Shown here piece by piece: positions 9,168 to 32,000 of a stretch of 64,000 nucleotides of DNA; positions within the stretch are counted from its first letter, which is position 1, and the number at the start of each line of letters is the position of its first letter. The translations under genes and the position numbers were made by a program. The stretch lies in assembly GCA_003024785.1 (NCBI GenBank), contig PUQB01000590.1, positions 48,465-112,464 on the forward strand, written 5' to 3'. The notes beneath the pieces were generated by a model. It saw only the letters and a program-made list of their open reading frames with translations, was not told the origin of the DNA and did not search any database. Origin of the DNA: Selaginella tamariscina. Its lineage: Eukaryota > Streptophyta > Lycopodiopsida > Selaginellales > Selaginellaceae.

Positions 9168-12100
9168 TCACCTTGCTGTTACACTCACATCAAACTTCTC
9201 CTTTTGCTGAAGTTGAAAAGCTTCGATCCTCTCCAAGGCCTCCTTGCGGTCCTCATCCATCTCCAAAAGCTGCATGATGCGAGCTTCAAGATCTTTCAAC
9301 GGATCAGATTGTCGGGAAGTGCTCGTTTGAAAAGTTGGCATCTCCAGTTCCGGTGGCATGATTGGCTCAACTCCATAAACCATTTGACAAGGAGTGAAGC
9401 CGTTCGTTGATTTGAACATCGTCGAAATGCAAAAAGTGCTGGCTAAGCATCCATGTCCAATCTCCTTGTCTTGTGGCCCCAGCTTGGTTAGCACATCCAC
9501 CAAGATCCCATTGCTACGTTCCACAACACCATTACTTTGCGGGTAGTATGGTGTACTTCGCCTGTGCTTGACTGACAGCTTCTTCAACAAGGCCTCCACC
9601 ATTCCTCCGCAAAAATGAGAGCCACGATCAGTCACTATCCCAGTGGACAACCATAGCGACAAACAATGTGCTTCATGATGAAATTTGCCGCTACCTCCTC
9701 CGTGCATGCATTAACTACTGAAGCTTCAACCCAGCGTGAAACATACTCGGTGGCAACAATGATATAGCGCTTCCCTGCCGATGTAATAGGAAGCGGGCCA
9801 ACAAAATCAACACCCCACTTTTCAAAAATTCCTGTGGGTAAAACCGGCTGCAAAGGTCCATGTTGAAGGATTCGCTTCCCATGTGCTTGACAAACGTGAC
9901 AACTTGAAGCCCATGCCTTTGCATCCCCCAAAGCCCAAGCCAATAGTAACTTGCAGTGAGAATTTCCGAGCTGTTCCTGCTGCCGCAAAATGACCGCCGC
10001 AAATGCCATCATGAAACATTTGCAAAAGCCGTGTTCGATCCCCTTCTTCAACTATCCTCTTCAAAACACCATCTTTCCAACGGAAGAACAATAGCACCTC
10101 TAGAAATGTGTAGTTTGCAGCCAATTTTGCTATCTGCTTTCGCTCTGCAGCAGATACCCCTTCGAGAAATTCGCCTGTGGTCAAAAACGTCACAACTCCT
10201 GCAAGCTCTTCGTCTAGGCCCAATCTTTCCACCCTGCTGACTTCCTCCTCTCTAACTAGCTCTAGCATCTCAACCTTGCTACTGAACTTCCCTGCTGAAG
10301 ACCCTCCTTCGATAAAGCATCCACCGCCTCCAAACTACATGCTGTATCTGAAAGATCTCGAATTTGGCTATTAGCTCGAGGACGATCTCATGTAATCGAA
10401 CCAGATTCGGCTTCAGAACTCGAAACAAACCTCGCACTTGCTCACAAACCAGCATTGAATCCCCAAATGCCACCAACTTCCTCACATTCGTCCTCAGCGC
10501 CATTTTGCAACCCAAAATCAAAGCTTGATATTCCTTCATTGTTTGAACTTGCCTCCATCAACAGCTGCGCTCGCTCCTCTGCAATCTCCCCTGTCGTCGT
10601 AAGATAACTCCAGCTCCACCAAACCCCAATTTTGGGCTAAATGCGCCGTCGAATTCCAAAACAAAAATTTCGGGATCCTTAAGCAATGCTGCCACTTTTG
10701 ACGTTCAAACTCCTCAGACACCTCTCCATCCTCGTCCAAACATTCCCGACCAAAACACGCGCCATCTGAGCCCTTCCTTTACTCTCACACTGAAAAACGT
10801 ACTCAAACTCTGCCAACTCGGCCACCCACGCTGCACAACGACCCGACCACCGTGGTTTGCTCACCAAGGACTTCAACGCCGCATTGTCACTCAGAACTAT
10901 AAACTGCCGATCCACTAAGAAATGACGATAGTACTGGCAACCATAAACCAAGGCCAGCACATCCCGTTCGAGTTCTAAATAATGTTCCTCTCCATCCTTC
11001 AGTTGCCTTCCTGCGTACTGAACTGGAAGCAAGCAACCCCCAGCCCCTTTCTGAAGAAGCACTGGACCCGTTCCCAATGCTTTTTTTCAAACATTCAAAC
11101 GCCATCTCACACTCATGTGTCCACTCCAATTCTGCTCGAGCTTGAAGCAACCTATTAAGTGGCCAAGCTATTTCTGCGTATCCCGAAATGAAGCGTCGGT
11201 AATAACTTGCCACCCTAGAAAAGCTCGAACTTATGTTTTCATCGTTGGAACTGGCAAGGCCTTCAGTTTCTCCACCTTGTCCTGCTCTGGCTCAATCCCA
11301 TCTTTTGAAACCACGTGACCAAGCAAAGTTCCCTTAGTGAGGCTGAACTTACACTTGGCTGCATTGAGGCTAGCGCTAGCCTCATCCAACCGTGCTAGGC
11401 AGCCCTGGAGATCCTCTGCATGTTGAAGTCGTCTCCCGTACACACAGAAATCATCCAGAAAGACCCTGACACTCTTACCCAAATATGGCTCGAAGATTAT
11501 GTTCATCGCTCGTTGAAAGGTGGCAGGCGCATTCGTTAACCCGAAGGCATAACACGGTAAGCGAAAGTTCTCCATGGAGTGGTGAACGTTGTCTTCAGCT
11601 GATCCTCCTCCCTGATTCGAACTTGGAAGTATCCAGAGAATCCATCACAAAAGCTGTACATCTCGTGACCTGCAACTTCCAGTAAAATCTCATCAATGAA
11701 AGGTAAGCATTGCTTATCCTTCTTCGTTCCCTTGTTCAGTTTGTCGAAATCCACGCAAAGCCTCCACAAACCGTTCTTCTTCTTGACCATCAACTGGAGA
11801 GACCCACTTTGTGTTGTTCACCGAAAAGATGAAAGCAGCTGTCAACAGCTTCTCAAGCTCGCAGAACACTGCCTCACGCTTCTCAGGCGACAAACGATAA
11901 GGCCTTTGCACCTCCGGCTTCACTCCCTCCTTTAAATCAATCCGGTGCTCAACAATGGACATTTGCCGCAAATTTTGGTACGATGTGGCAAACAACTTCG
12001 GAAACAACTTCAGCACCCCCAAAAGCACCAACTTCTCACGCTCAGACAACTCAGAGCCTAGTGTCTCCCTTAGCTCAGCCTCCAGAACTCGCTCCTCCTC

Positions 12101-13584
12101 CCCACCTTCCACACGGCACAAACGAATTCCACATAATTCCCCTTTCTCTGTAGATTCCTCTTCAAAGATAGGCCCAAGCGAAATGCCTCCAAATTCTTCC
12201 TCCCCTAACTCAACTTCATCCAAAATGTCCTCCTCTTCCAAATCCTCCTCGCCCTCCACAACCACGTCCTCCTCAATACCTAATTGATCTTTCAAAATTT
12301 CCCAAAACCGGAATCACCACCCTTTTGAAACGATCACCAAAAGACATTTTTCCAGTACTCCAGTCGTTCTTTGCCTGAACTTGTCGCAACCAAGGACGTC
12401 CCAGAATTAGAGGATAACCATCACGCTCCAAAGCTAAAACGTAGACCGTCACGACTGAGCGAACACCATGAACATTGATCCCCAAACCCCGCATCATACC
12501 AACTGGTTTAAACTGGACGATCATCAGCTAGCCGAATCATTCTATGGCACTTCTCCAAGGTCAAAGACAATTGCCGTGCAATCTCATGGCTCATCACATT
12601 GATAGTAGCCCCACTATCCACCAAACAACCCATCAGACGAAAACCACGTATCATGACATCAACCATAGGAGCTTGCTCGTCCACATCCGATGCCACATCA
12701 ATTGCACGAACTGGTGGTTTCCTCGACAAAAGTCGTGTGCTAACCCCTGCCTGAACCTCTGCCCGAAGCTTGGGACACAGTGCTAATAGTTGAGGAATGG
12801 AAATATCTGCTTTGACCTTCTGTAGATCCGCAACAATGGAATATGGTTCAACACCTTGACCAATTGCCATATCCTTCAAACCAATCTGCCTCTTAGGAGC
12901 TCTTTGTACCTCACTACGCAAACGAGTGGAGCGTGGCCTTTCCTTCTCATGCGGTGCGTCTTCCATTACTTCCTCGACTGGACGAAAACATTTCCGAGCA
13001 GCCAAAACTTCAGGAACTAAATCCAGTGAATTCACTGCAGCTGCTCCACCTTCAATGACTCCTCCATTACTCGAAGACCCACTAGGTCGAGGCTGTGGCC
13101 CTTTTGACTGTGGGCAATACGTGCTATAGTGCCCCTTTTGCCCACACGTATAGCACGTAATACCCGATAGATCTGTACGTGGAGCTCGTGTGGTTGTGAT
13201 TGTCCTGAGACTTGAACCAACTACAAACTCAACTTAGTCATTGCTTCCACCAATTGATCCATCTTCTCCAAAGCCGGAGAGGGCACCGGTGATGAGACTA
13301 GCAACTGGCTGAGGTTGCCCAGGAACTGGATGGGAAATCCGCACCTGAGCTTTACTCACTTCTCCGACATCCTTCAAAAACTCCTCCTCAGATAGCGCAA
13401 CTCGCTCAGCCGCAACTAACGTGGTCGGCTTTGTCTTTTTCACAAGTGGCCGTAGCTCGCCCGCCAAACCACCAACGAACCTTAGCGTTGCAAACTTTTC
13501 ATTGAAGGACACACTTGCTTGAGTCCCCGCAGTCACACCTGGGGCCTGTGGGTTCACCTTGTCCAACCGTGAAAGAAGTACATA
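9168..13584 (-). mobile_element. gag end and pol of the outer Ty3/gypsy fossil
   Basis: Leftward pieces carry a CCHC zinc knuckle (about 13100-13160), a retropepsin core with VDSGAT (about 12600), reverse transcriptase motifs (FGLTNAPATFQ and FLDDF, about 11450-11560), an RNase H domain (about 10700-11060), an H2C2-type region and an integrase core with VTDRGSHF and YYPQSNGVVER (about 9500-9640). No chromodomain is evident. The order is that of Ty3/gypsy. The region is interrupted several times and is treated as a fossil. The piece between 8903 and 9168 is the tail next to the 3' LTR. Confidence 0.9.
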
Positions 13585-13613
13585 TGCACGTTGTAACTAA
13601 AGTGGGCATGATA
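13585..13613 (+). repeat. Left terminal inverted repeat
   Basis: Begins TGCACGTTGTAACTAAAG and continues TGGGCATGA. It matches the reverse complement of 27985-28014 with a few mismatches and one gap. The preceding TACATA (13579-13584) pairs with TACATG after the right end. Confidence 0.75.
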
Positions 13614-13891
13614 CGTGAAAATGGGAATATAAAATAAATTACTAATTAATACTTAAGTTTTAATTATTAATTAATCATTTAATTAATATGTAATTAAGCC
13701 TTAAATATTAATTAATTAATTAATTAATCCTTCAATAACCTTACTTAGTAAGGAATATTCCTAAAATATCTTAGAATATTCATATTATTCTAAAAATAGT
13801 TTACAATAATGAAGAAATACTATCAAACATAATTACAAATGAAATCATTTTCTTATCAACATGTTAATTTTTTATAAATACTTTCTTTCTA

Positions 13892-14856
13892 TCATACAAA
13901 GAAATCTTTCATTTTGTCTAAATCATCACTCTCCGGATTAATCAAATCATTTTGGTCAATATCTTGATGTTGTTGCCACCACTTAACACTCTCACGAATG
14001 CAATTGGGAGTTGCCATCCTTGTTAATACATAAGATGTGATAAGAGAAGGTCTGCATAAAGGCTCATCTAAAAACTGACGTTCCTTAAGAATAATATTAT
14101 AAAGCGCCCGGTTGCTATCCTTCATTTTATAAAATTCAATATCACGAGAAAGAAAAGCTTCAGGAAATGTATGATACGGTGGATACTGCTCACAAAAATT
14201 TTCGAGATTCTTCTTTCTGAGGCACGTATCCAAGTAGTTCACTAGCTCATCCATGATATCGGTATCAGAATATGGATCGAAAGTGATTGGATGAATACAA
14301 GCAATGTTTTGGTTGAGCATAGCCTTCTGAGGAGAGTCGTCTACTACTAAGATATGTGCATTCTTCGTTATCCTTAAGCGACTGATCTCCCCATGAGTCC
14401 CAATTATTCTTTCATTCTTGAAGAAGTATGGCTTGCTTTCCTTTCTTATATTGTGAAATTCGAGAGGTTTATAACATATTCGCTGGTCAAAAATCCAATC
14501 TTTACGAATCACCTCTTCTGCAACACTACAATGTTTCTTAAGTAAATTCAACAGCGGTGTTAAGTTATGAATCTGCATGCATGACCAAATCCCCACAAGC
14601 GCACCCATCTCCTTAAGCTTTTGAAAGAGACGATCCAACCCTGGACGAAAAATAATATCATATCGAAATTTACCATGACAAGGAATGAAATCTCCTTGTT
14701 TGATTTCTGTTTTTCTATCCTGGGCCTTTGTCGATGAAGCAGAACACCATTGACATCCAACAACACAATATGGCCATGAGTAACATGAGATAGCGTTGCC
14801 TCTTGAATACTTTGCAAATCACTTGTTTGCTCCCTTTCACATTTATCCGTTGCCAC
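13892..14856 (-). CDS. FCP1/NLI-like HAD phosphatase-fold protein
   Basis: The protein resembles the FCP1 homology (NLI-interacting factor) domain of HAD-superfamily CTD phosphatases. From the N-terminus there is LLDVNGVLLHR (motif I region), then a RPGLDRLFQ segment, a VGIWS block, a lysine-bearing mid-region (KPYFF) and VVDDSPQKAML near the expected motif IV, followed by a helical tail to the stop at 13892. In active enzymes motif I is DxDx(T/V). Here the second Asp position is Asn (DVNG), as in some plant relatives, so catalysis is doubtful. One single-base frame change near 14725-14735 separates the first about 43 codons from the rest; it could be an assembly indel. It lies inside the DNA transposon, downstream of and parallel to the ParB-like gene, so it is either a captured host gene or a working part of the element. 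Confidence 0.7.
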
Positions 14857-15315
14857 TATTCGTTGCCTATCCCTTCATCATTTAATTGTACATCATCCTT
14901 ACAAGATTCAGATATTGCATGCGCTGAAGAAATTGATTTCGGAATGAAGCCAATAAAAATGATGATGCAAAAACTGAAGTGGCCCCCATGGTAACGATGT
15001 TTTGAGCTGCATTATTATCCATTTCCTGCATGAACTCTGTCATTCTGACATGTGGCACAAGAAATTGTCGCCAAACCCCTCTCTTACCTCATGGCAATGC
15101 TGAAAATCCATGTTCTCAATTATTTCATTACATCTGCAAAATGATAATTAGCTGACCTTAAAATTATCAAGGTATATTATTTACCTTGTTAATGTGTGAC
15201 CCATGTTTGAACTAAAAGCTTCATTAATCCTTGAGAATTTATTTTCTGTACAAATATAAAAGAAATATACAAAAATGCCTTATGTTACACTCATTTACAA
15301 CTATTCATCACTCTA

Positions 15316-18300
15316 TCAATTCATTATCAATTCTTCTTCGCTATTACCTTCTGAATGAGGCGAAGAAGGTCTAAGCCGCTTGTGAGATGGTTCAAGATCT
15401 TCTGCATCTTCTATTGATGTTTCCATGGGTCCTGGAGTGTGCGAATGTTCTGTACTCCTCGAGATAACTTCCGGTCTAATATCTGATTGATGTTCGTTCT
15501 CAGACTCCGAGATTGAACCAGATTCACCTTCAGAGCTATCGCACTTATCTGGAGGGAACTTTCTCAAATACGCCTTTATGGATTCGTTGGGGTACTCAGT
15601 TGAGACCCAATCTATCCACTTGTTCAGGTCCTCAACCATGGTCTTATCCTTTCAACGGCAAACACACATGTATGCCGAAGGTAACACTCCTTCAAGACGG
15701 ACCCCCTAGTGCAGTAGTCAAAAACCCACGCATCACTGTGAGGACCCCTGATCAAGTTGACGATGCTCCGTGCCGCTTGACTTGTAATGTTTGGATAACG
15801 TACATTGCCGAATACGTCACTCATACCTATCGGTGTATCGGATGGAGGTTCAGGGCCGTTGGAGTGCAAACAGATGCCTGGCCAGTCATTTGGAAGCTTG
15901 AAATTGTTTGGCGCATTCCTAACAACCAAGTGAACAACGTATCAATGCACTTGGGATTAGCATCGTTCATATAAAATCCTGTCCAACGATGTCTATTCTT
16001 CTTGGCGAAGGCGAAGGCAAAAGTATCGGTGACATGAGCAAGAATCAAGAAATAAATACCTGAAAAAGTAGGTATCAGTGAAGAGCGCAAGCATGAATTC
16101 AATAATAAATACCTTCTATGTATATGCTTGCACGGCTAAGTTTCTCCACCAGATCCTCTAGTGCCCTATCTGTCGAAAGATTTTTTGACACCCGCCGATC
16201 CATCACGAACAATTGAAACGGTTTCCTACAAGCAGTGATGTTACCCCATAAAGTCTCCGAATCTAACAACAAACATCTGTAGGGCTTGTCGTGATTCGTA
16301 GCATCCTCCTTTATAAGGTTCAATTCGGTTCTCCGCTGCTGAAGGACTGCCATAAGAGAAGGCGTCATCCCAATGTTCTCCTTTTTGGCGTTGGCGTGCA
16401 ATAGATTCTTGCCTAGATCTTCCGATTGGTTCACCCATTCGACAAGCATATCATCGTTCGTCACATGCAAATATTTGCTACCTCTTCATATGTTGAAGTC
16501 GAGGTCCAACCCAGTTTGTGGCAGTGTATTCCCAACCACTCCTTGAAATGCCTGACCGTCTTCAACTCCATTGCCTTGAGATGAAAAGGAGAGGTTGGGC
16601 TGCTGTTATTAATTTGTAGTTTGCCATCGATCACCAAATCAGCCAAGACTTCCATCTCCTCCATCGTTGTTCCATTTAAAGGCTTCAACCATGTGAGCTT
16701 GAAATCGTTGTCTACATCCTTTGTAGATTGAACAGACTTAGCCTTCGGCGTCTTACTGGGTTTCTTTGCAGACTTTTCTGAGGGCTCCCCTTCACTTGTC
16801 TGCTTCTTCTTCAGTGTTCCTTTTGAAAAGGATTCCATAATCCCCAACCATTTGGCAAAGATCCTATCTTCGGGGCAAGAAATCAACATCATCAGAAATG
16901 ATGTTTCCTTCCCGCCCACCTGGGCAAAATCAACTGCTGCAATTTCTTCAACTCTCTGAGGAAAAAGACAGATTAATATACCGGCGAGATAAATCCCGCC
17001 CAAACAATTTGCTTACCCGGTATTCCGCAGATTGTGTATTCCCTGCGGTAGCTCTTTGTGGTCGCTGAAGAGATTCCCACACGGCTCGCGTGTGTTTAAA
17101 CTTCTCCCATATTTTGCTGTTGTAGTGGTTGGTGTCGGCAGCGTCCCATTCCGCCGATAACTTATGGTACTGCTCGATTGTGAGATTCGGCTTAGCTAAA
17201 AACGCCGATCTTTTTGTCAGCTTCTCACGGGTATGCTCGGAAAGTTTTGTTGCCATCGTTCCTTTGTTGTGTTCATCGAGAAGTCGTTGGGCTGCCGTTA
17301 TTGTGTGCTGGCCACTAATGATGTAGTACTTGATAGATCTTTTATTCTCCGTCTGAATCTTCATGAGTTGTTCTGGTGTTGTGATCCAGACTTTGTCAGC
17401 ACCCTTCCTTCTTTCATAGTATGGACACAAAACAGCATTATGTGGAACGGTATAAGAATTGTCGTCCTTCATCTTCTCCATGAGCTCAGCTACACGTTCC
17501 TGGTTGAGTGGCCTGTAATTGAAGTTTGGGTTGACGCTGCAATATTTAACCCTACAAGGATAAATCTTATCATCCAACATCATTTCCTTGTGACTTATTG
17601 CAGCATGAGATGCCACAGGTGCAGCTGACAAAAACGATTGATGATTTTCTTTTGCGATCCGAATCAACATGTGTGATCCCCGACTGCAGCTGTTCTAGTG
17701 TTCTCGGCACACTCTTCCAGCTCCCGAAGCTTCCTAAGCAAATTGAACGTGATCTGTAGAGAACCTGAGACCGAGCCACCCTCTCAATCTCCTTATGATG
17801 TCGCTGTGTTCTTCTTCAATGTGAAGAGGGAAGATTGCTCCACTTGCTGATTTTCTGTATTGTGAAGCAATATCTCCTGACAATACACCTACTCGATGAG
17901 TCTGAAGATCTTCGAAGTAGACATCCAGATGGATCCCCTCCATAGATGGGCTTTCGTTGAGTTGAAGAAGAACTCCAAGGTCAACATCATTAGTGAACAC
18001 GTGAACGTCATTATCCACAAGTCGACAAAACCACCCGAGATTAATGTTGTAACTGACGACCTCTGGATCCGAGAACGTGACATTGGATGGAACAAGGCAT
18101 ATCTGTCGAGCATCGTCCAATCTGGGTTCGCAGCCTGCTTTCGGGTGCTTGACTAGCGAATCTACTTTCCATTGTTTTGCTTGTCCATGAGATGTGACAG
18201 AGGTTAATTTGACAGCAACCATGGTTGCTCCAATGCGCTTCCCATTTATCTTAAAATATGGCCAAGTTGATTCCAGAATCCCCCTGCCCATCTCTTCTCC

Positions 18301-18417
18301 TGCTCTTGTCTTTAATGTCACTCAATTCCACATCTGAATACAAAAATGATTAGTTCAAGTATCCGAGTATAACAGATTTTATTTTAATTCTTACCCAGAA
18401 TTTGACGACGACTCCAT
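15316..18417 (-). CDS. ParB-like plus DNA-methyltransferase-like multi-exon protein
   Basis: Read leftward, a short first exon may start at 18417 (MESSSNSG, donor at 18395). An N-terminal region of unknown type follows (about 17734-18321). Then comes a ParB/sulfiredoxin-like segment (about 16990-17670) with NPNFNYRPLNQERVAEL and YYIISGQHTITAAQRL, where ParB proteins have R..ELAESI and G(E/Q)RR. A lysine-rich linker follows (about 16750-16830), then a mid-region with LLLDSETLWGN. The C-terminal segment (about 15640-15930) includes DAWVFDYCTRGSVL and CVFAVE, resembling motif I (FxGxG...AVE) of DNA N4/N6 methyltransferases. An acidic tail ends at 15316. The methylase motifs are degenerate, so activity is unlikely. 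Exon joins are uncertain and a few frame changes are present. It is the gene immediately downstream of the larger palindrome array. Domain calls are by eye. Confidence 0.5.
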
Positions 18418-18559
18418 ACTAATGACTCGATCTCCTTGTTTGATCAAATCGTCCTTCTGCAAAATAATACACTATAAATATAAATTATATAAAAACGCAC
18501 ACACACTTGTATAAACCCGAATATACAAAAATAATACACAGAGAGAAGTAGACGTAATT

Positions 18560-18646
18560 AACTGTCCGAAGCTCACATTTGTGTTAGTGCAAAAGAAAGA
18601 TAACATTTCGTTTTAGAACCACCACAAATGTGAGCTCTGGACAGTT
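18560..18646. repeat. Short inverted repeat upstream of the ParB-like gene
   Basis: Arms AACTGTCCGAAGCTCACATTTGTG (split here as AACTGTCC then GAAGCTCACATTTGTG, 18560-18583) and 18623-18646 are reverse complements with a small mismatch, loop about 39 nt. It lies between the first exon of the ParB-like gene and the palindrome array. It could be a regulatory hairpin or a tiny foldback insertion. Confidence 0.7.
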
Positions 18647-18754
18647 TTACATAGATTCCTAGCTTTTACTCGAAATATTATGATAAGATGATAAAAGTAA
18701 ATAAAATGAGATATGCAACTTATATATACTAATACACATATATATTCACATGGA

Positions 18755-20345
18755 AATTAATCTCGCCACCCCTTCAATGCCTCCTGAAAGAGTGGGCGGG
18801 ATTAATCTCGCCACCTTTCTGGAGGCCTTGAACGGGAGTGCGGAATTAATCTTGCCACCCTTCTCGGTCTCAGAGAGAACTGGGCAGGATTTATTTCTCA
18901 CACCCCTTCAGTGACTCCAGAAAGGAGGCGGGATTAATCTCGCCCACCATGTAAGTGATGGTTAAATGAATTTCCCCACCCTTCCCAATTCTCTCCATTG
19001 GTATGTTGAAAACCTTCTACGTCTCAGACAGAAACGTTTGGGATTGGTCCGACTCACCAATGGAGAAAAAAAGGAAGGGTGGCGGGATTCATTCCTCCAA
19101 CAGGCATTGAAGACTCGGCGGGATTAATCCCGCCGCCCAGGGCCTTCACTCGGTCCCTATGCGGCGGGATTAATCCCGCCGGACGCCAATTCCTCGCGGA
19201 ATCGGGCGGGATTAATCCCGCCGCCTAGGCACTTCAGCAGGCCAATGGCGGCGGGATTAATCCCGCCCGATTCCGAGCAGGGAATTGGCGTCCGGCGGGA
19301 TTAATCCCGCCTCCCAGGCCCTTCACTCGGGCCTTAGTCGGCGGGATTAATCCCGCCGAACGCCAATGCCCTGTGCGAAATCTTGCGGGATTAATCCCGC
19401 CGCCTAGGCCCTTCAGGCAGGCCAATGGCGGCGGGATAAATCCCGCCCGATTCCGCGCAGGGCATGCGTACGCGGCGGGATTAATCCCGCCCACCATGTA
19501 AGGGATGGTGAAATTAATCCCACCACCCTTCTCAGTTCCCTCCATTGGTATTTTGTAAACCTTCTCCGTCTCAGACAGAGTTAGTCGGGATTGATTCAAC
19601 ATACCAATGGGGTAATGAAGGTCGGAGATTAATCCGCCACCGGGTAATGAAGGTTCGGAGGCTAATCCCGCCGCCCTCTCGTAAATCATGCGCTCACACA
19701 TATATATTGGCTGCGGCATTTTTGAACAGGGATGGGTGGGGGCGGGATTAATCCCGCCGCTTATATCCTGCGGAAGTGCCTGAGCGGCGGGATTAATCCC
19801 GCCGCCCTCCGCGAAGGGCATGAGCGTGGGGCCGGATTAATCCCGCCGTTCATGTCCTGCGTGAATTCCCTGGCGGCGGGATTAATCCCGCCGCTCTACG
19901 ACAAACCGAAGAGCGGCAGGATTAATCCGCCGCCCATGGCCTGCGTGAGGGGCCTCGGCGGCGGGATTAATCCCGCCGCCCATCCCCTGTAAATGCCCTG
20001 CGCGGAATCCGGCGGGATTAATCCCGCCCATTAGAACCTTCACACAGGCCATTGCCGGCGAGATAAATCCCGCCGCATTCCGCGCAGGGCATGGGTGAGC
20101 GGCGGGATTAATCCCGCCGCCGAGGCCCCTCACGCAGGCCATGGGCGGCGGGATTAATCCCGCCGCTCTTCGGTTTGTCGTAGAGCGGCGGGATTAATCC
20201 CGCCGCCCATAGCCTGCGTGAAGGGCCTCGGCGGCGGGATTAATCCCGCCGCCATGGCCCCAACCATATAGCGGCGGGATTAATCCCGCCGCCGAGGCTA
20301 TAAACCTATAGCGGCGGGATTAATCCCGCCGCTCGAGGGGCTTAG
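18755..20345. repeat. Palindrome array 1 (GGCGGGATTAATCCCGCC)
   Basis: About 20 near-exact copies and several variants of the 18-bp palindrome GGCGGGATTAATCCCGCC, most regularly between 19119 and 20330. Copies often begin every 40-47 bp (for example near 19121, 19162, 19207, 19248, 19295, 19340, 19385), close to four helical turns. The outer part (18755-19100 and 19500-19680) is more decayed. Many copies extend the palindrome to GCGGCGGGATTAATCCCGCCGC. Spacers are 20-28 bp, GC-rich and themselves repeated in both orientations. The array lies upstream of the leftward ParB-like gene. Frames through it read as repeated GGGINPA-like peptides, which is a by-product of the repeat. Confidence 0.9.
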
Positions 20346-21041
20346 CGAGATAAAAACACACACATATATATGTGTGTGTGTATATATATATATTATGTAT
20401 GTATGTATGTATGTATAGGAGTGTACGTGTGTGTGCAAGAGATAGATAAATAAATAAAATTATACAGTACTGGTACACCTAATATATGTGTGTACATAGG
20501 TATATATATGTGTGTATATGTATATCGTGTGTATGCGTGTGAGCGAAACAAATAAAATCATACAGATAAACAAACACACACACACACATATATATACACA
20601 GGAGTGTGCGTGTGTGTGCGAAAGATAAAACTAATAAATAAATAAAATTATACAGATAAACACACACATATATATGTGTGTATATAGATATATAATCTAT
20701 AGAGAAAGAGAGAGAGTCTGTGAATATATAAGCATATATATAAACTAGTGTTGTATGTATGTATATATGTATATAGGTATATATATATGTGTATATGTAT
20801 ATTGTGTGTATGCGTGTGTGAGCGAAACAAATAAAATCATACAGATAAACAAACACACACACACACACATATACATACACAGGAGTGTGCGTGTGTGTGC
20901 GAGAGATAAAACTAATAAATAAATAAAATTATACAGAAAAACACACATATATATATGTGTGTATATAGATATATAACCCATATGAATATATAAGCATATA
21001 TATAAACTAGTGTTGTATACTATTTGTTAATATGCATTGAT

Positions 21042-21091
<50 letters not shown>

Positions 21092-21151
21092 GCAGTGCGC
21101 GTGTGTGTGGGAGAGATAGATCAATAAAAAAAAATTTACAGATACTGGTAC

Positions 21152-21223
<72 letters not shown>

Positions 21224-21401
21224 GCAGTGTGCGTGTGTGTGGGAGAGATAGATCAATAAAAAAAATTTACAGATACTGGTACACATTATATGTATGTATA
21301 TGTATATAGGTATATATATAAGTGTATATGTATATCGTGTGTATGCGTGTGTGTGCAGAGATAAAACTAAATAAATTTATACGCACACTCCTATACATAT
21401 A

Positions 21402-21432
<31 letters not shown>

Positions 21433-21440
21433 GATCTCAC
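20346..21440. repeat. Microsatellite and minisatellite tract
   Basis: Mixed AC/GT, TA and TGTA repeats are organised as longer tandem units. A unit of about 280 bp occurs at about 20490-20760 and again at about 20770-21020, and a shorter unit of about 125 bp occurs at about 21055-21170 and 21180-21300. No coding potential. It is part of the DNA transposon between the two palindrome arrays. Confidence 0.8.
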
Positions 21441-22038
21441 CTGTGTGCACAGCCGCCGCCGCCGATTTCACAGCCGCCGCCTCTTGAAACCCTAAGAATA
21501 TACCTAAACCCTAAAGGAATTAAATATATATTAACCCTAATAAAATATTCCTTCTGAGAATATACTTAAACCCTAAAAAGAATAAAATAAGATTCGTCCT
21601 AAACGAATATTCTTTCATTATATTATTAGCGCGTGCGTGTGCGTGGGTGTATCACATACACCTCAAAAATAAATCATGCAGGGATTTAACATGTGTGTGT
21701 CCATGAGAGTGTTAAAGTTTCATGTGTATCAATACATACATACACATTGCATATATTAATACACATAATATATACATACACACGTGTATACACACAGACA
21801 TACACACATATTAGTACATAATATTAGAGAGACCGAGTACATATTATAGATCATGCATGGTGTATATGTTTGAGAGAAGAGAGACAGTACATATTAACAT
21901 GGATCATGCATGGTGTGTATGTATGAGAGAAAAGAAAGTACACATATATACATACAGAGTACACATATATACATGCACACGTGTATACACACAGACATAA
22001 TACATATTACATGAGTAAATTCATTGTGTTACATATTA

Positions 22039-22075
22039 GGTTTAGGGTTTAGGGTTTAGGGTTTAGGGTTTGCTC
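22039..22075 (+). repeat. Interstitial TTTAGGG telomere-like repeat
   Basis: Five or so tandem copies of the plant-type telomere unit TTTAGGG. Further single AAACCCTAA units (telo-box-like) lie near 21486-21600. In plants such units occur in promoters of growth-related genes or as interstitial relics. Here they lie between the two palindrome arrays. Confidence 0.85.
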
Positions 22076-22322
22076 CCAACAAGCTTAATATAAATATTAC
22101 ACATGTAAATTCAATGTGTTACATACAGTTACACATATTGAGTACATATATCATACATGCGTTGAACATGATGTTTTCAATAAAGAAGCAATCTATTTCT
22201 TCAGTTTGGTTTAGGGTTGTGCATGTGTGTGCATATGTGTTTTTGTAAGTTCTTGTAATGCGTGTGTAAATTTATGATTGTGTTTATATATGTGTGCAAA
22301 ACAAACATCGAATAATTAAGAA

Positions 22323-22760
22323 AATAATATTAATAAACACACTAGGAACATATTTTAATTATACATAATAATATATGATTTTATCTAATATATAGCCATA
22401 TATAGTTTTAATAATATATATTAATTTAATATGATAAAAAGGTTTAATATTGAAATATTCTTGAAATAATAAGAAATTAATTGAGAAATCCCATTAATAT
22501 ATACAAATGTAAATTAAGTACTCAAATAATTAACTAAATTAATTATCATAATCATGTTTAATATTGGAATATTCTTGGAATAATAAGAAAATAATAAAGA
22601 ATATCCCATTAATATAAAGAAGATTAATTACTCAAGTAATTAAGGAAATGATATTAATATATATTTATTAAAACTATATATGACTATATATTAGATAAAA
22701 TGATGTATTATTATGTATAATTTAAAATATGTTCATAGTGTGTATTAATTTAATATTGAT
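22323..22760. repeat. About 100-bp inverted repeat with duplicated interior
   Basis: Arms at about 22323-22425 and 22651-22760 are close reverse complements (shared blocks include CATATTTTAATTATACATAATAAT and ATCTAATATATAG, each only partly quoted here). Between and beyond them a GTTTAATATTGGAATATTC block occurs four times (about 22460, 22555, 22766, 22889), so a unit of about 325 bp has been duplicated (22330-22640 and 22655-22975). It may be a MITE-like or foldback insertion inside the larger transposon. Confidence 0.7.
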
Positions 22761-23039
22761 AATAAGGTTTAACACATGAATATTCTTGAAATAATAACAA
22801 ATTAATTGAGAAAATCCCATTAATATATACAAATGTAGAATAATTACTGTAATAATTAAGAACAAGACTAATTTAATTATGATAATCAGGTTTAATATTA
22901 GAATATTCTTCAAATATTAATAAAATATTAAAGAATATCCCATTGATACTAGAAATGAAAACTAAATACTCGAGTAATTAAGAAAATAATAATAATAAAC
23001 AGACTATGAATATATTTTAAATGATACATAATAATATAT

Positions 23040-23650
23040 CAATTTATTTATTGTATAAGTATATATTTATATATATATATATAATATAATATACTTGAAT
23101 ACTAAGAATGTAGAATATAGTCTAAAATTTCGTAATATTAAACAGCTTGAATCACTTGAATAACATTAAATGCAATTTTAAAATACTCATTGGAACTGGA
23201 GAGTATATATGTCAGAGTGTCGGATATTTGTGTCAACTCATCTTAAATTTTATTTTCTGTTCTTTTAAAAAATTTGAATTTTCTGACATATGTATTGTCG
23301 GTTTGACATGTAAATTTGAAAATGCATTTAATTCCCACTCAAATTCAGATCTGGTTCTTTCTCCGGCAAGGGTTTCTTCATTTCTGTATTTTTCACTCTT
23401 TAGATCTTCTTTTTTCTTCATAGTGATCATCTCAGGGCGAGATTAAATTGGGTGCTATTCTTTATAGGAAAGCACGGCGCCTTCAGTGCTGTTTACAAGT
23501 AAGTATTATAAACAAATTTAAAAATACTTATAAAGATTCACTCTCTTACATTCTCTCTTAAAATTACAATTTAGGGGTTTAGGAATGCATTAGGATTATA
23601 ATATATTTCGTTAGGGATTTATCCCGTTTAAATATCCTTTTAACTTAATA
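23040..23650. other. AT-rich region before array 2, possible 5' leader
   Basis: Contains TA runs and a TC-rich stretch with a GGGTTTCTTCATTTC-like segment near 23365-23390, a composition common in plant 5' leaders. A possible donor (AAG|GTAAG-like AAGTAAG) lies near 23498. No protein family is recognisable in the 99-codon frame here. It may be noncoding leader sequence of the rightward transposase-like gene. Confidence 0.3.
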
Positions 23651-23654
23651 TTCT

Positions 23655-24270
23655 AGGTTAACCGGGCCGGCGGGATTAATCCGGCCATTTCTTTTTGGCC
23701 TCTTCGAAGAGGTGGCGAGATTAATCCCGCCACCATCTCCCGGGCAATGCTTCTCCGCCACTGAAAAAGAGTGGCGGGATTAATCCCGCCGATAACCTTC
23801 TCAACTGATGAAGAGTTACCAGAATTTATTAGAAAGAGTTGTCGGCGGGATTAATCCCGCCAACCATTTTAGGAGGCAGGGAAGGGGTGGCGAGATTAAT
23901 CTCGCCACCACTTCCCTGTTTTAAAGATTTGGGGACAGGATTTATCCGAGATCTCTTTGAAATCATAGTTTTGGAGAGAGTTATGTGCGGGTTTAATCCC
24001 GCCACCCATTCTCCGTCGTAAGAATTGTGGGGGGATTAATCCCGCCTTGGACTCCCTCCGACAAGGAAGAGCCGGCGGGATTAATCCCGCCGCCTCTTCC
24101 TCCTCGGGGGGAGCCGGCGGGATTATTCCCGCCGACTCTCTCCGGCGAGGATGAGTCGGCGGGATTAATCCCCCGACTCTCTCCGAAGGGGTTGAGTCGG
24201 CGGCGGATTAATCCCGCCGACCGTTCCTCGTCGGAGGGATTCGTGGGCGGGATTAATCCCGCCCATCAGT
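23655..24270. repeat. Palindrome array 2 (same 18-bp palindrome)
   Basis: About 12 copies or variants of GGCGGGATTAATCCCGCC, near 23665, 23710, 23772, 23840, 23886, 23984, 24028, 24072, 24114, 24155, 24196 and 24243, the last seven spaced about 41-47 bp. Some copies carry paired changes in both arms: the one near 23886 reads GGCGAGATTAATCTCGCC, still a perfect palindrome. It lies directly upstream of the rightward transposase-like gene, mirroring array 1 in front of the leftward gene. Confidence 0.9.
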
Positions 24271-24401
24271 TGTATTAATCAAACATGAGATATTATCTCT
24301 AAACATAATTATGTTATTGCATATGCATATTATTAAGTAACCGTAATTCAGATTTCTTAGAAATATTGCATAAACAGATGTCATAAATAATACAATTATT
24401 T

Positions 24402-27375
24402 ATGTGCAGGACAATATGTTTAATACTGGAGATAAAGTATTTTTCGGAACAACGAGATAGTTGGCATGGAACTGTGGAAGTTCGAGATAATAATGCATCA
24501 TGTCACAATATTGCCCAAGGATCTTGTGTGTACGTATGGGTGAACACCATTTCAAGCATGTTGAGGTTCTGGAATGGAATTTGAGGAGGATTCTCCTGTA
24601 TTGTGGATTTGGATGAAGTCAAGGCTGACACAGAATATGCAGAGTCACAAACAAATAGTAGCACGAGTTTACCAGATGATGGCTTGCCTGCTGTAATGGA
24701 TGAGGTGATTCTCTTTCTTCGTGAGATTGAAGTCGGAAGAGGCATCATCACAGCTATAAATCCAATGGAAGCAGTGTCAGAAGAGAAACTAGGGTCCGAC
24801 TTCGTGGGTGTAGTTGTGACAGAGGTTTCACCTAATGGCACATTGTATCCTGGATCCCTCGTGAGGTGGCGAACATCTGAATTAAGACGGCAAGATGTTC
24901 AACATATTCTGGGTTGGATTTCAATAATAACAACCCGGAAGAACAACTCATATTTGAAGAGGTTCCTTGCATTGGTCCTATTGTAAGAAAAAGGCGATTC
25001 ATGGGTTGTAGATCTTCCCCTGCAAGTTTCAACAAGAGGGTAAAGATGGATCCTACATCTTCCGAAAGTGTTACGAGCATTTCCACGATTGACTGTTGCA
25101 AGAAGAAGTGTTGTCAGATGGCAGACCGGAATGAAATTACCCAATGTAGACATGTCTTTCGTATGCTCACCCAAAGCAAAGGCATGAGTTTGTATATGCT
25201 GCACTAACTGGGTGTATTGATGGAATGGCCTCGGACACAGGTTATCAGAGTACATCCATGGTATTTAATAAGGTGGCCATCTGCTTCAAAGCTTGGTACA
25301 GTATATACGGGATCCCAAAGACCACGTTCTACCGTCAGAGGGATGAGTGGCTAGATGGAGCGCGAACCTCAGTTCATGGGAACACTGGCTTGGTCAAAAC
25401 CCGCTCTCACATCATGGCAGCCATAGAGATACTCAAGCTTTTGTGGAAGCAAATGCAGACAGGATGCCTCACAAATGCCGAACCACAAATGCAGGGGTCA
25501 GGGAAAATCTCAAGGTTTTACCTTCAATCTACACTCAATTGAAACTGTGTGAACATGTGAACAAGTGCCTCAGTTTGATGGGGCTCCAAGCAATCTGCAC
25601 TGGTACCTTCAACAACATATGGAATACTCATTTTAAGGATGTGGAGATTGCAAAACACTCTAGCTTTTCTAAGTGTGACACTTGTACATCATTGAAGGCT
25701 GCAGAGGCTTGTGCAAAAACCTTGGTGGAGATCACTACCATTCAAAGGAAGATGGAGGCCCACATGATTGCACAACAAACTTGCCGGTCTCAGTACTATG
25801 CACACCGCATGCTTTCTGTGTCACGCCCATCAGAGTACCTGTGCTTGATCCATGACAAGATGGATCATTCAAAGAGCATTCCAAAGCTCTTTGCAACACC
25901 AAAGTGCCTTGGAAATGTCATGAAACTTCCGATTTCATTGACAGGTGTGCTAACAAATGGACAACGGTTGTGAGTCATATGGACACTTTTCACTTCCACA
26001 TTGGTCTAGCGACTCCAATTTCACTATGGGTCGTTAGCCATGTGTTTCAGAAACCTTGAAGCCCACTCACAGACAAGTCCTATCAGTGATCTCAAAGTGA
26101 AGAAACAACACCTTCAACCTTTACATAATGCTCTCATGAACACATCTGCACTTGAGGCTACTTGGGAATATGAGAGGCATTGTCAGCAACCTGCACAAAA
26201 ACAGATGGCCCTGTTGAGAATTCAGGTTCAGTGGAGGGATCTAGCTCAAATAGTGTACATGTGTCCTCAATATCAAATAAGCTTCCTCGTCATTTGCTTT
26301 TACAGATGGATAATTGTGCAGGCGAGAACAAAATAGGTAAATCATTTTACTTAAGGGTTTCTCAAGCTCATACTTACTTTTATTTTCTAGATATGTGCTA
26401 GCATACTTGTCAATGCTTGTTGCCAAGGTGTGTTTGAAACAATCACGCTCAGTTTCCTTATGATTGGTCACACTCATGAAGATATTGATGCGTTCTTCAG
26501 CAAGGTCTCCAACTCTACAAAAAGGACAAGTGCACTTACCTTACTGCATATGATGAATCTTTTTGAAAATTGCATCTCCAAAAAAAAGTTGTGCTTTGCT
26601 TGTGACTGAGGTGCCAGACTTCAAAAAATTTCTCAAGGAGTAATAAAAGAAGGGAGTGATTCTTTAGTTGGTCACCTTGTGCCGCTACAATTTTTTCTCC
26701 ATACGAGATGGTATACCTATTATGCAGTACAAGTTACGGCCATCAGAGCAGGAGTGGTTACCGAAAGAGGGGTTAATGCTCTTCAAAAGTGGAGAGGATG
26801 GAAAGCCACTTCTCCCAGAAGGACAACCAGACCCTATTCCATTGAGTGCCCAGCTCAAGGAACAAGAGGTTATTATTGATGGCATCAAAAAATATGTGGC
26901 ATGGGTTCAAAAATCGATGCCAAAGAATTTTGATAAGGCAACTGGTTACTCAGAACTATATAAGCATGTGGTCAACTATTGGGAGACTGTTGTTCGAGAG
27001 TTGGAAGGGCCTACTGTCACAAGTACAGAATTGTAACACCCTTTTTGGCCTAAAACAAGGTGGCGAGAGGAGATTGAAATGACATCACTGAGCACAGACG
27101 ACATAGAAGCCAGTAGTGATGTGGAAGTGCAAACCCCACATTTTGTTGGACAAAGGAACCAAAAACCTAAAGCATACTTTGATTGCTGCAAGGATCTTCA
27201 AAAACTAATGATGGTTCTCATTACTCCAGATGCGTCATATAATCAGCCTATTTGGATGGGTCAAATTATCGACACACCTGAAGTAATCATAAAAAATAGT
27301 ATTATTAAGGTTGCATGGTTCAAACCACAAAAAGGCGACACGAGAAGGAGAGCGAAAGATATAATGGATGCCTAG
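24402..27375 (+). CDS. DDE/RNase-H-like transposase candidate (DUF7869-like), frame-disrupted
   Basis: Pieces in neighbouring frames form a consistent order. A Tudor/BAH-like start (GDKVFFGT, then WHGTVEV, 24420-24540) is followed by an acidic segment and a CCKKKCCQ cysteine cluster (about 25092). Next come YGIPKTTFYRQ followed by VHGNTGLV (about 25300-25400), a CDTCTSLKAA zinc-binding-like motif (about 25675) and LIHDKMDHSKSIP (about 25847). LLQMDNCAGENK (about 26300) and IGHTHEDIDAFFS (about 26465) follow. The D, D and D/E-bearing blocks fit an RNase-H-fold transposase and resemble proteins with DUF7869 in other plants and animals. A C-terminal PIWMGQII...VAWFKP segment looks BAH-like. Several frame changes and possibly introns interrupt it, so this copy may not be functional. 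It is the only transposase candidate in the 14.4-kb element. Confidence 0.6.
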
Positions 27376-27984
27376 AGAAAACATGGTCTCCCAATCAAAA
27401 AGACCAGCATGTTTATAAATGTTAAATCCATTCGATATGGGTGATGTCAAGAAGCGTTGATAAAGTCACGATTAACAAAACTGCAAGGGAATGTATGTTT
27501 CTGAAGCTTAAGTAAATTACAAAATTATAATATATCATATATTTAATATTCATAATTATTATAAACTCTTTAATAATAGTACCAAATTGTATACTTAACT
27601 ATATAAATTTAAAAAATGATATGGAAGATTGACTATATTATTATAGGATTTTATATATAATTATTACTACTACAAATTTTAATTAATAATGTTATATTTA
27701 AATATTAATATTTTAATAACAACATCAATATTTATATAATGTACCTCTTATGCTTCCTTAATTGTTATATTAGGCAATATATTATATAATTTAATACATT
27801 TCTACTTTTATAATGTTATTAATTTTTGTTCAATGAATGCTATAATTTATTAAAGGTAGAAACAAAATAGAATATTCTAAAGAATATTCTCTTTTCAAAC
27901 ATATATTCTAAAGAATATTCCTTTAATATTAGAAAATGCTAATTAAATAGCTAAAATTGCTAATTATTAAGAAATGGGACTATA
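27376..27984. other. AT-rich right subterminal region of the DNA transposon
   Basis: Noncoding AT-rich DNA between the transposase-like gene and the right end. AGAATATTC motifs recur near 27868-27925, mirroring those near 13757-13790 at the left end. They are candidate subterminal binding motifs. Confidence 0.45.
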
Positions 27985-28014
27985 GCCATGCCCATTTTTA
28001 GTTACAAACTTGCA
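27985..28014 (-). repeat. Right terminal inverted repeat
   Basis: Reverse complement begins TGCAAGTTTGTAACTAAA and continues TGGGCATGG, matching the left end at 13585-13613. It is followed by TACATG. Confidence 0.75.
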
Positions 28015-28323
28015 TACATGAGCTCGCCGTGCAAAAGTCATAACCGATTCACCATCCTTTTGCTGAAGCTTCTCCAATTCCTCAATAACTTGCTCATACG
28101 ACTCAACAACTCCAAAATCACGAAGAAAGGAACTCACGAAGGACGCCCAATCCGACTTGTCAGGTGCCCCCAACTGATCAAACCACTCCCAAGTTGCAGC
28201 ATCAAAGTACACATGAACATGAGAAATCAAGGAAGCCCCCCAACCATGAGCGTGCGCAAAACGTTCATACTCTTCCAAAAAGACACGAGCATCACTACCA
28301 ACAGAAAACACATGATACAACAT
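28015..28323 (-). mobile_element. gag piece of the outer Ty3/gypsy fossil
   Basis: A capsid-type gag segment (retrotransposon gag family) with WEWFDQL, FVSSFLRDFG and VMTFARRA blocks, read leftward. It is cut by the DNA transposon at 28014, and the remaining gag sequence continues at 13584. Treated as a fossil part. Confidence 0.8.
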
Positions 28324-29626: not shown

Positions 29627-32000
29627 TTAATTTACAGAATACATGTTGGAGAGCATTACATATGCAGCTCCACAGCTGGAATCTAAAGAGAGGAGATTAT
29701 CAGTGACATGGGCTCCAAGTTTGTTCTGGTTTTGGCTTTTACATGCCCCAAGTAACAGGCCCAGTCGAAAGCGTCGGGCTGAAAAAGGCATGCAATTAAC
29801 AAGCTCCCTGGCATGACTTAGATATCCAGCCCTTCCCAACAAATCCACCATGCAAGAATAATGCTGCTTCAAAGGCTCTCATTGTAATCCAAGCACATAG
29901 ACACCAGACAGCACCTCCCTGCATACACCTTACCAACACGACTACACGCAACGAGGAATGACACAAAACAAGACGTAATCCGGCATCTCAACCATCTTCA
30001 TTCTGTCAAACGTTTCCAACGCGTCCATAGTATATCCAGTTTGGGCATATGCAGCTAACATGGCACTCCACGAAACCCTTCCCTGCTCGGGCATGGTATC
30101 AAAGACTTTCCCTGCCAGATGCACGCACCCGCTTCTCGTGTATGCCGTCAACATGGCATTCCATGTAACTGCATCCCGCTTTGGCAGTGATAAAACAGCT
30201 TCTCAGCTTCCTCCGTCTGTCTGTTTTGTGCGTACGCAACCAGCATTGCATTCCAGGAACAAGAAGTTTTATGCAGCATCTCATCAAACATGCACTTGGC
30301 TTCCTCCAGATGCCCTGTTTGGGCATATGCAGAAAGAAGTGCATTCTTAGACACCTCATCTTCATCTTTCTGTGGCATTTTCTCGAACAAACTCTTCGCT
30401 TCCTCTACATCGCCAGCTTGGGCAAACGTAACAATCATCGAGTTCCAGGCAACACCATCGCGATGAGGCATCTCAAGGAAGATTTCCTTAGCCAACTCCA
30501 GCTGACCAGCTTGGAGTATTGTACACCAAGAGACCATGTCACGCTCAGGCATGTTATCAAAGAGCTCTCTAGCCATCTCCAAGTTTCCATCCTTTGCGTA
30601 TGCAGCTTAGCAATGGCATTCCATGATATGAGATTCTTCTGTGGCATCTGGTTGAAGAAACTCTCCGCTTGAGAGATGTACCCATGCTGTGCGTACGCCA
30701 TTAACATGTTGGTCCATCAACCACGTCCCTCTGAGGACTCCTCTCAAAGAGAGACTCTGCTTCTGTTAGGTGACCGTTCTCCGCATTACGCCCACTGCAT
30801 TGCTGTCCATGCAACGAGATCACGCTCCGGCATTTGATCGAACAAAACCTTGGCCTCCTCCAGATGCCCTTTTTGGGCATACGCACAGAGCATGGTGCTC
30901 CAGGAGACTGTATCCCTCTCCTTCATCCCGGAGAAAAGCTCTCTAGCCTCAGCCACATGGTTTGTGCTGTGTATATGCTGAAAGCATTGCATTTGTGGAA
31001 ACCAGGCTTCTCTGCGGCATTTCGTCGAACAACCTCTTTGCATCTTCCAAGTGCCCGTGATGGGCATTCGCAGATACCATCGTGGTCCAAGAAACGGATC
31101 CCTCTCAGGCATTCTTTCGAACGTCTCCGTTGCCATGTCCATCCTACAGAAACTCACATACACCGATAACATCGCATTCCATTGATACTAAGTCCTGTTC
31201 TGGCATTGCATTCAAGAGATTTACAGCCTGATCGACTCCAGTTGACGCAGCAAGCATGGCATTCCATGAAAACAGATCCCACTCTGGCATCTCCTGAAAG
31301 AGTTCGTTCCCGGCATTTCCTGGAAGCATGGTGTTCCACGAGATTATATCCCTTCCAGGCATCATTTTAAAAATCTCTCCAGCTTGGACATGCCTGGAGT
31401 TTAATATATAAGCACTCAGCATGGTATTCCACGATATAAGACTCGGGTGTGACATGCAGTCAAATATCTGTTGGGCTTTCTGTAGTTGCCCTTTAGCGGC
31501 AAAAGCAGAGATCATTGCGTTACAGCAGACAACGTCGACGTGAGGTATTGAATCGAATGCAGTCTTTGCGTTATCTAGATCCCCGTTTCTAATGTATGCA
31601 ACTAGCAAGGCAGTCCAGGAGACAAGATTGGGATGTTGCATACTGTCGAACAGTGCCTTGGCTTCCCGCAGATGCCCTCTTTGGCATATGCAGCAACCAT
31701 AGTAGTCAATGAAATAACGTCAGGATTTGGCATGATATCGAACAGTTGTTTTGCTTGAGTGAAATCCCTATTGCGGATGTACGCACTGAGCATGACATTC
31801 CATGAAGAGGAGGTTTTCGGAGTCGTTTTGTCGAAGATCCGACGGGCGTCCCTTGGGCTCCCACATCTGCTGTACATCTCTATGAGTTTGTTGGTGACTA
31901 TAAGGTCCCCAACGTAGTGGGCAGTAGCTTGAATCCTATTTGCCTCACTCAGATTGCTGCATTTTTGTATGAGCTCAAGGCAATGTTTTCTGTCCATCAT
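29627..32000 (-). pseudogene. S-type pentatricopeptide repeat protein, frame-disrupted
   Basis: At least fifteen PPR motifs of the 31-residue S type follow one another, with repeated phrases such as SWNTMLSAYI, AMLVAYAQ and LFDQMPERD. An N-terminal segment starts at 32000 (MMDRKHCLELIQKCSN) and an E-like C-terminal segment (HYSCMVDLLGRAGYLSHA) ends near 29627. Such proteins bind organellar RNA and often direct C-to-U editing; no DYW domain is seen. The reading frame changes near 31640, 31170, 30800, 30700, 30590, 30150 and 29900, so it is a pseudogene or a gene damaged by assembly indels. It looks intronless, as most plant PPR genes are. The rest of 28850-29600 shows no gene. Confidence 0.8.

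Follow-up and report, generated by a model that had tools for sequence, protein, structure and literature searches.

The stretch of DNA that we analyzed (64,000 nucleotides of Selaginella tamariscina; hereafter, the window) contains a 14.4-kb DNA transposon that is inserted in the gag of a Ty3 element. The left arm of the transposon carries an FCP1/NIF-like gene and an orphan gene, both on the minus strand; the right arm carries a predicted transposase gene on the plus strand; and two arrays of palindromes lie between them. The features, in order of their start positions, are as follows.

12511..13233, minus strand: gag-pol portion of the interrupted Ty3 element (zf-CCHC zinc knuckle above the cut-off, aspartyl protease below it)
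13580..13583, no strand: left target site duplication, ACAT (defined by uninterrupted gag copies that align to a query with a single ACAT)
13584..28015, no strand: complete DNA transposon, 14,432 bp (common left end, empty sites, borders)
13584..13610, plus strand: left terminal inverted repeat, ATGCACGTTGTAACTAAAGTGGGCATG (end comparison among copies)
13875..15092, minus strand: FCP1/NIF-like gene (approximate borders, mapped by hand from copy L026, which has a 406-aa open frame)
15319..18321, minus strand: orphan gene spread over several exons or frames (frame readings, with neither homologue nor profile support)
18796..20329, no strand: left palindrome array, 27 sites of the GGCGGGATTAATCCCGCC type, upstream of the minus-strand genes
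20350..23660, no strand: central spacer between the two palindrome arrays, A+T-rich and microsatellite-rich
23670..24262, no strand: right palindrome array with 12 sites, located upstream of the predicted transposase gene
24416..27508, plus strand: predicted DUF7869 transposase gene, two exons (Pfam PF25273, open copies, spliced length, and fold; 3′ end approximate)
26337..26390, plus strand: putative transposase intron, 54 bp, GT...AG, with an in-frame TAA (from sequence)
27987..28015, minus strand: right terminal inverted repeat (end comparison among copies)
28016..28019, no strand: right target site duplication, ACAT (same basis as the left one)

The element ends in ATGCA...TGCAT inverted repeats (ATGCACG-TTGTAACT-AAAGTGGGCATG versus ATGCAAGTTTGTAACTAAAAATGGGCATG; about 29 aligned columns with two single-base gaps). 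A query in which a single ACAT joins both flanks aligned without interruption to 15 gag copies over 274 of 274 nt at 98 to 100% identity, six of them at 100% (the listing has 17 rows, these 15 and the two halves in the window). These empty sites define a 4-bp duplication, ACAT, and not the TACATA/TACATG flank proposed in an earlier note on this DNA; the borders given there, 13585..28014, were right in substance and are corrected by one base on each side, to 13584-28015. The split gag described in the same note was also recovered: with the duplication counted once, a single frame (199 aa) runs through the junction and stays open over all 600 nt tested, while 1, 2, 4, or 5 extra bases at the junction leave an open frame of 110 to 128 aa, and 3 or 6 do not shorten it. 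Elsewhere in the window, an integrase match at 9171-9710 falls below the cut-off.

The left end is present in 30 of 30 loci (including that of the window) with differing flanks, and right ends were located in 19 of the 24 further copies tried. Empty sites were found for two additional copies, one of them nested in a further copy of this element. The target duplications read at loci are ACAT, ATAT, and ATAA. Taken together, the shared left ends with differing flanks, the right ends, and the intact gag copies establish that the 14.4 kb is a single mobile unit, as the earlier note had inferred; both lookups that it suggested, for further copies that share these ends but not their flanks and for related gag copies that lack the insert, had a positive outcome. 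Gene searches imply at least 356 element positions among the matches listed, and a DNA search of the genome with the left end, by a method that passes over simple repeats and very common words, gave 0 matches. Many copies are near-identical, and the element was most likely active recently enough to leave them.

Both the predicted transposase gene and the FCP1/NIF-like gene have frame breaks in the window. Gap openings outnumber mismatches in 12 of 13 copy comparisons (the exception is L061, 38 to 39), and in each of the 13, over half of the single-base gaps, as a raw proportion, adjoin the same base. In view of both observations, we do not read the frame breaks as proof of pseudogenes, and the pattern would suit assembly errors.

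The gene of the right arm, with its start placed at the first ATG of the frame, encodes 1021 aa in the natural copy L073 and is open in copies L072-L074. The spliced natural copy L059 matches Pfam DUF7869 (E = 1.6e−46), and a structure model of the protein has an RNase H-like fold, both of which agree with the DDE-like gene noticed earlier in this arm. The acidic residues D484, D637, and D677/D679 of the natural copy fall in alignment columns that show either no variation or at least 90% conservation across 47 rows; E at 676 adjoins D677/D679, and the third acid of the triad is ambiguous by sequence and model. We predict that the DUF7869 protein is a DDD transposase with an RNase H-like fold. 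Among the 120 homologues listed, the named ones are from Physcomitrium, mussels, oysters, corals, sea urchin, and others, and most rows are nameless. The term DUF7869 was not found in the literature searched, none of 26 pattern matches in viral contigs was confirmed, and Foldseek against viral models gave no match at E < 0.001. DUF7869, a domain of unknown function in plants and invertebrates, is now linked to a mobile element whose ends and target duplication are proven.

The element is most likely a Sola1-like giant transposon, a placement made by shared features. The Sola superfamily, in the part of its description available to us, has 4-bp target duplications, a DDD transposase, and some elements of >15 kb, and is present in the moss Physcomitrella (PMC10741241). 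Our element shares the 4-bp duplication (15 empty gag sites and two further empty sites) and, by sequence and model, the DDD transposase with its RNase H-like fold. By the definitions in the same partial text (PMC10741241), we rejected CACTA/EnSpm (the ends here are ATGCA, not CACTA or CACTG), Mutator/MULE (the duplication is 4 bp, not 7-12 bp), and Tc1/mariner (the duplications are ACAT, ATAT, and ATAA, not TA).

In the left arm, the FCP1-like gene that had been proposed there matches Pfam NIF (PF03031) above the cut-off in the open frame of L026 (E = 7.3e−12) and in the window (E = 1.7e−9). The catalytic motif of FCP1/SCP (NIF) phosphatases is DxDxT, and the corresponding position reads DVNGVL, with N in place of the second acid. 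The protein had no match among solved structures at E 0.01. Across 30 copies, the gene varies at 10 sites (1 synonymous and 9 non-synonymous), too few to infer selection.

The orphan gene had been called ParB/methyltransferase-like, a resemblance seen by eye (a ParB-like motif near 17300-17600 and a methyltransferase-like motif near 15650-15720) that no search backed. For ParB, profiles, homologues, solved structures, phage tblastn, and fold gave no usable match; ParB profiles from Pfam, NCBIfam, and PHROGs did not recognize the gene, and the same held for ParB_N in its own genome. The sub-threshold matches are unrelated: a PHROG of unknown function (E = 0.064), one phage place (E = 7), and the Pfam-type entries DUF6942, HOOK, IL31, Cys_rich_VLP, and RecJ_C (E = 0.02-0.7). 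The amino-methyltransferase motif is [DNS]PP[YFW]; none of the three sense frames of window positions 15200-18500 or of L055 positions 1-2500 contains it, and an active methyltransferase is thus unsupported.

Upstream of both transcription units, the window element contains 39 near-copies of the 18-bp palindrome GGCGGGATTAATCCCGCC, mostly ~45 bp apart (27 in the left array and 12 in the right one, at a tolerance of 3 mismatches). With at most 2 mismatches allowed, the 16-nt core of this palindrome matches 37 times versus 0.00 expected from 100 shuffles, which substantiates the central palindrome arrays reported earlier. Within the window arrays, cores are ~92% and spacers ~29% identical. The genome (300 Mb) holds 27,128 exact copies of GGCGGGATTAATCCCGCC. 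Judging from the gene models, the arrays are probably non-coding, and we infer that the palindromes are candidate binding sites for a regulator or an anti-silencing protein.

We propose that the ~14.4-kb element is a giant cut-and-paste transposon, most likely of the Sola1 type and recently active, and that its palindromes are docking sites of a dimeric protein, likeliest the orphan gene product; we consider this joint explanation probable. The DUF7869 transposase, as sequence and model suggest, would cut at the inverted repeats and join the ends to a target with a 4-bp stagger. The arrays would lie in promoter-proximal DNA of two divergent transcription units, and the protein bound there would most likely be the orphan product, the positional counterpart in algal Sola1 being that of the ParB-like accessory protein. 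Once bound, the orphan product could coat the regulatory DNA of the element and either keep it expressed (VANC-like anti-silencing) or autoregulate it. The FCP1-like protein would be cargo and may act on the transcription machinery.

The algal counterpart is Sola1-1_Ec32 of Ectocarpus, 21.5 kb long, which, in the available part of its description, has, on the opposite strand from its transposase, a gene for a ParB-like and DNA methyltransferase protein; that text proposes that algal ParB-methyltransferase proteins of transposons bind and mark their own DNA (PMC12477816). Both are giant DNA transposons with an accessory gene opposite the transposase, as gene order and strands show for the plant element. 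One is from a brown alga and the other from a plant, however; ParB and methyltransferase of the plant element are without search support, and palindrome arrays and an FCP1-like gene are unmentioned in the available description of the alga's. The earlier statement that no plant transposon with this gene set had been described thus needs qualifying by a close published analogue, although that analogue is from a brown alga. Arabidopsis VANDAL elements have a MULE transposase and VANC motifs of 8-9 nt, and the accessible text lacks the term palindrome (PMC5735166). Like our element, they repeat a short motif in tandem outside the coding regions and encode an additional protein besides the transposase; the likeness is one of layout.

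In the same transposon, the palindromes could instead be sites for a host transcription factor (e.g., of E2F type, with GGCGGGA half sites) that turns both units on in dividing cells, with the orphan gene unrelated to them. The arrays do lie upstream of both units, and each arm, GGCGGGAT, differs from the E2F-type motif, GGCGGGAA, by a single base. Yet the central ATTAAT is conserved as much as or more than the arms (1.7-2.0 bits versus 1.5-1.8 at inner arm positions, with 2.0 also reached by the G and C at the ends of the core), which half-site binding would not require, and we regard a host factor as unlikely. It is likewise improbable that the arrays are structural or recombinational and non-regulatory (hairpins or satellite-like expansion), spread by slippage and gene conversion. 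While tandem repeat finder units of about 45, 90, and 177 bp and array lengths that vary between copies fit such an origin, slippage alone would leave spacers as alike as cores, whereas pairwise identity in 7 arrays, including that of the diverged copy L078, is 0.87-0.96 for cores and 0.29-0.37 for spacers (compared ungapped).

Partition or bridging, in which a ParB-like protein on the ~39 palindromes at 45-bp spacing would hold copies or excised circles together, recalls SopB on the F plasmid, whose parS/sopC has twelve 43-bp repeats with ten 16-bp inverted repeats in the accessible text (PMC6238139). The element shares an array of ~45-bp units, each with a 16-18 bp inverted repeat, and the ParB-like motif seen by eye would agree; F is a bacterial plasmid, however, whereas the plant element has no proven ParB, the ParB profiles found no match, and general Pfam scans of the element's frames revealed no ParA-like match, which makes this reading quite doubtful. 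Lastly, nothing favors the view that the 14 kb belonged to the retroelement ancestrally or was pieced together from unrelated repeats; the 15 uninterrupted gag copies rule this out, and it also conflicts with the left end shared by all 30 loci and the self-nested insertion, leaving it next to no probability.

We tentatively consider that the orphan product is a diverged ParB type that binds the 18-bp palindrome and forms a self-marking, parS-like system keeping copies unsilenced or clustered; we see this as possible rather than probable. A Sola1-type element with an opposite-strand accessory gene is already known, and what is new here is the palindrome arrays upstream of both transcription units. 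No target sequence of the ParB accessory proteins of giant transposons was found described in the literature searched. The plant element combines an opposite-strand gene, as in the alga, with a concrete candidate target, present in 39 near-copies in the element and 27,128 exact copies in the genome, so that the self-binding proposal becomes directly testable. If it is true, an element-encoded self-marking system would occupy about 27,000 sites in a plant genome, and the ParB accessory proteins of giant transposons would have a concrete target sequence.

The element at positions 13584 to 28015 is mobile, with shared ends, a target duplication, a gene set and palindrome arrays. The borders that the earlier note had claimed for it are real: it starts with ATGCA on the left and closes with TGCAT on the right, and its two ends are imperfect inverted repeats that align across about 29 columns. 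The check that the note had proposed, for other copies with the same ends in different surroundings, was also positive. A search of the genome with the FCP1-like protein gave at least 141 scored places at 97 to 100% identity (6148 first-look candidates), and all 30 loci compared, the window included, have a common left end at a near-equal distance from the FCP1-like gene and differ in their flanking DNA. Right ends were found at the expected distance in 4 of 4 copies and then in 15 of 20 (24 further copies searched); this search left out 3 of 23 considered copies (contig ends), plus loci L007 and L014. At locus L006 (1145-1175), about 30 bp separate the right end of one copy from the left end of the copy that follows, so that two elements stand almost head to tail.

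When both window flanks were joined by one ACAT (274 nt), 15 places matched this query over its full 274 nt at 98 to 100% identity (100% in six places); both window halves were matched too. The 15 places represent related retroelement copies without the 14 kb, as the claim of an insertion into a gag gene had implied, and identify the target duplication as ACAT. If this duplication is counted a single time, one frame stays open over the junction through all 600 nt tested. Of the matches in the surrounding retroelement, the zinc knuckle passes the cut-off and the protease and the integrase fall below it; together these are consistent with a Ty3 gag-pol. Downstream of the insertion lies a pentatricopeptide repeat frame (31147-31719, minus strand; Pfam PPR, E 4.4e-23), which fits a plant host.

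Some other copies have their own duplications. Copy C862 is nested in another copy of the element at the equivalent of window 22350-22353 (duplication ATAT), and copy C527 lies within a repeat whose uninterrupted form is window 57036-57043 (duplication ATAA). This target repeat, with CAGGAGCAGGACAAGATC-type units, is present twice in the window, in the 57036-57043 region and at 62179-62562. Copies L017, L027 and L029 also have left flanks that match the element itself. Both flanks are known for 20 copies (window included), and 8 of these have an exact 4-bp duplication, versus 6 of 380 in the mismatched-flank control; 4 more match if one end-base slip is allowed, 2 agree in 3 of 4 bases and the other 6 have no match. 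Because L028 and L030 share one right flank, at least one of these two pairings may be wrong.

The element is abundant, and many copies are nearly identical. Pieces of the DUF7869 transposase gene and of the orphan gene each matched at least 150 places at 98 to 100% identity (4547 and 5020 first-look candidates, respectively). Pooling these lists with that of the FCP1-like gene (places clustered within 3 kb) gave at least 356 element positions on at least 267 contigs. Gene pairs recur at the expected offsets: at least 44 FCP1-orphan pairs (2.9-3.1 kb) and at least 20 FCP1-DUF7869 pairs (10.7-12.3 kb) among 141 matches listed, and at least 29 orphan-DUF7869 pairs among 150 matches listed, versus 0 in wrong-side and wrong-strand controls. 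The FCP1 frame differs from that of copy L026 by 0 to 6 substitutions per 1,206-1,218 aligned nt in the 30 best-scoring loci. Older partial copies are also present: on contig C1, the three single arrays that were sampled are element parts at about 80 to 95% identity. In comparisons of window 13584-28015 with L031, L034, L055-L059, L061-L063 and L065-L067, gap openings outnumber substitutions or come close to them, and more than half of the single-base gaps adjoin the same base (a raw proportion); many frame breaks may therefore stem from the assembly and not from real decay.

Features of the element
about 13875-15092, minus strand: FCP1/NIF-like gene
about 15319-18321, minus strand: orphan gene
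16984: additional single palindrome site
18796-20329: left palindrome array, 27 sites at ≤3 mismatches, 22 of 26 spacings 40-51 bp
23670-24262: right palindrome array, 12 sites at ≤3 mismatches, 8 of 11 spacings 40-51 bp
24416 to about 27508, plus strand: DUF7869 transposase gene

The central spacer of the element, between the two arrays, holds 4.7 exact copies of GGTTTAG (22039-22071), a different register of the plant telomere unit. In copy L056, the N-terminal part of the transposase (1858-2499, plus strand) has a sub-threshold match to TNP1/En/Spm Transposase_23 (E 0.065).

The FCP1-like frame encodes 406 amino acids in copies such as L026, whose protein matches Pfam NIF (7.3e-12). Phosphatases of this family carry a DxDxT motif; DVNGVL replaces it here, and the protein is a candidate phosphatase that may or may not be active.

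The earlier note had also called the orphan gene ParB/methyltransferase-like. By eye, RVKYCSVNP...YYIISGQHTITAAQRL resembles a ParB N-domain, and VFDYCTRGSVLKECYLRHTCVFAVE resembles methyltransferase motif I. Neither assignment was supported by searches of the protein database, of Pfam, NCBIfam and PHROGs profiles, of solved structures or of phages, or by fold prediction (pLDDT 35.7). A ParB_N profile run on the whole genome gave the gene no support and detected 11 of 14 controls, and the [DNS]PP[YFW] motif is missing from all three sense frames tested. The orphan gene is therefore not classed as ParB.

The palindrome core GCGGGATTAATCCCGC occurs 37 times in the window at ≤2 mismatches, every time within the element (shuffled control, 0.00), and of the two arrays one lies directly upstream of the minus-strand genes, the other directly upstream of the transposase gene. 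Genome-wide, the exact 18-mer is found 27,128 times versus 0 for its reversed control. On C1, where all of the first 100 listed places lie, these form 11 clusters (counted by reading), 6 of which consist of two sub-arrays 3-4 kb apart, as in the element. The window element has 22 exact palindromes and the middle parts of copy C693 have 31, so that the total would correspond to roughly 900-1,200 element equivalents, or, were these full length, about 4-6% of an assembly of 300.7 Mb.

In 7 arrays taken from 6 sequences (window, L055, L056 and L076-L078), pairwise identity is 0.87-0.96 in cores, a value raised by choosing sites on core likeness, versus 0.29-0.37 in spacers, whose likeness is somewhat underestimated by ungapped comparison; the L055 set includes one stray site distant from its array. 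Conserved cores between drifting spacers are the pattern that selection on the sites would be expected to leave. Under our preferred reading, a dimeric protein would bind the palindromes near both promoters. Alternatively, the palindromes may be sites for a host factor, or they may be structural repeats. They could also form a parS-like bridge: PMC6238139 describes, for the F plasmid site, twelve repeats of 43 bp that include ten inverted repeats of 16 bp. For transposition itself, the predicted DDD transposase would pair both ATGCA ends, cut them and join them to a 4-bp staggered target.

In the open-licence papers searched, we found no mention of DUF7869 and nothing that combines a giant transposon, ParB and a moss genome; a query for ParB-like proteins with eukaryotic and plant DNA transposons turned up a paper on Ectocarpus (PMC12477816). 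We rate the element as most probably a Sola1-like giant transposon, a known type, here in a variant that carries a module of palindrome arrays together with an FCP1-like gene. Homologues of the DUF7869 protein include named ones from the land plant Physcomitrium, and Sola elements have been reported from moss (PMC10741241). The Ectocarpus paper puts forward the idea that a ParB-methyltransferase may bind the transposon that encodes it and mark it. VANC proteins of Arabidopsis, according to PMC5735166, remove silencing and bind to short motifs, which are tandemly repeated in the non-coding DNA of VANDAL transposons. The Selaginella element would combine VANC-type motif binding with the idea of self-marking by a ParB-methyltransferase.
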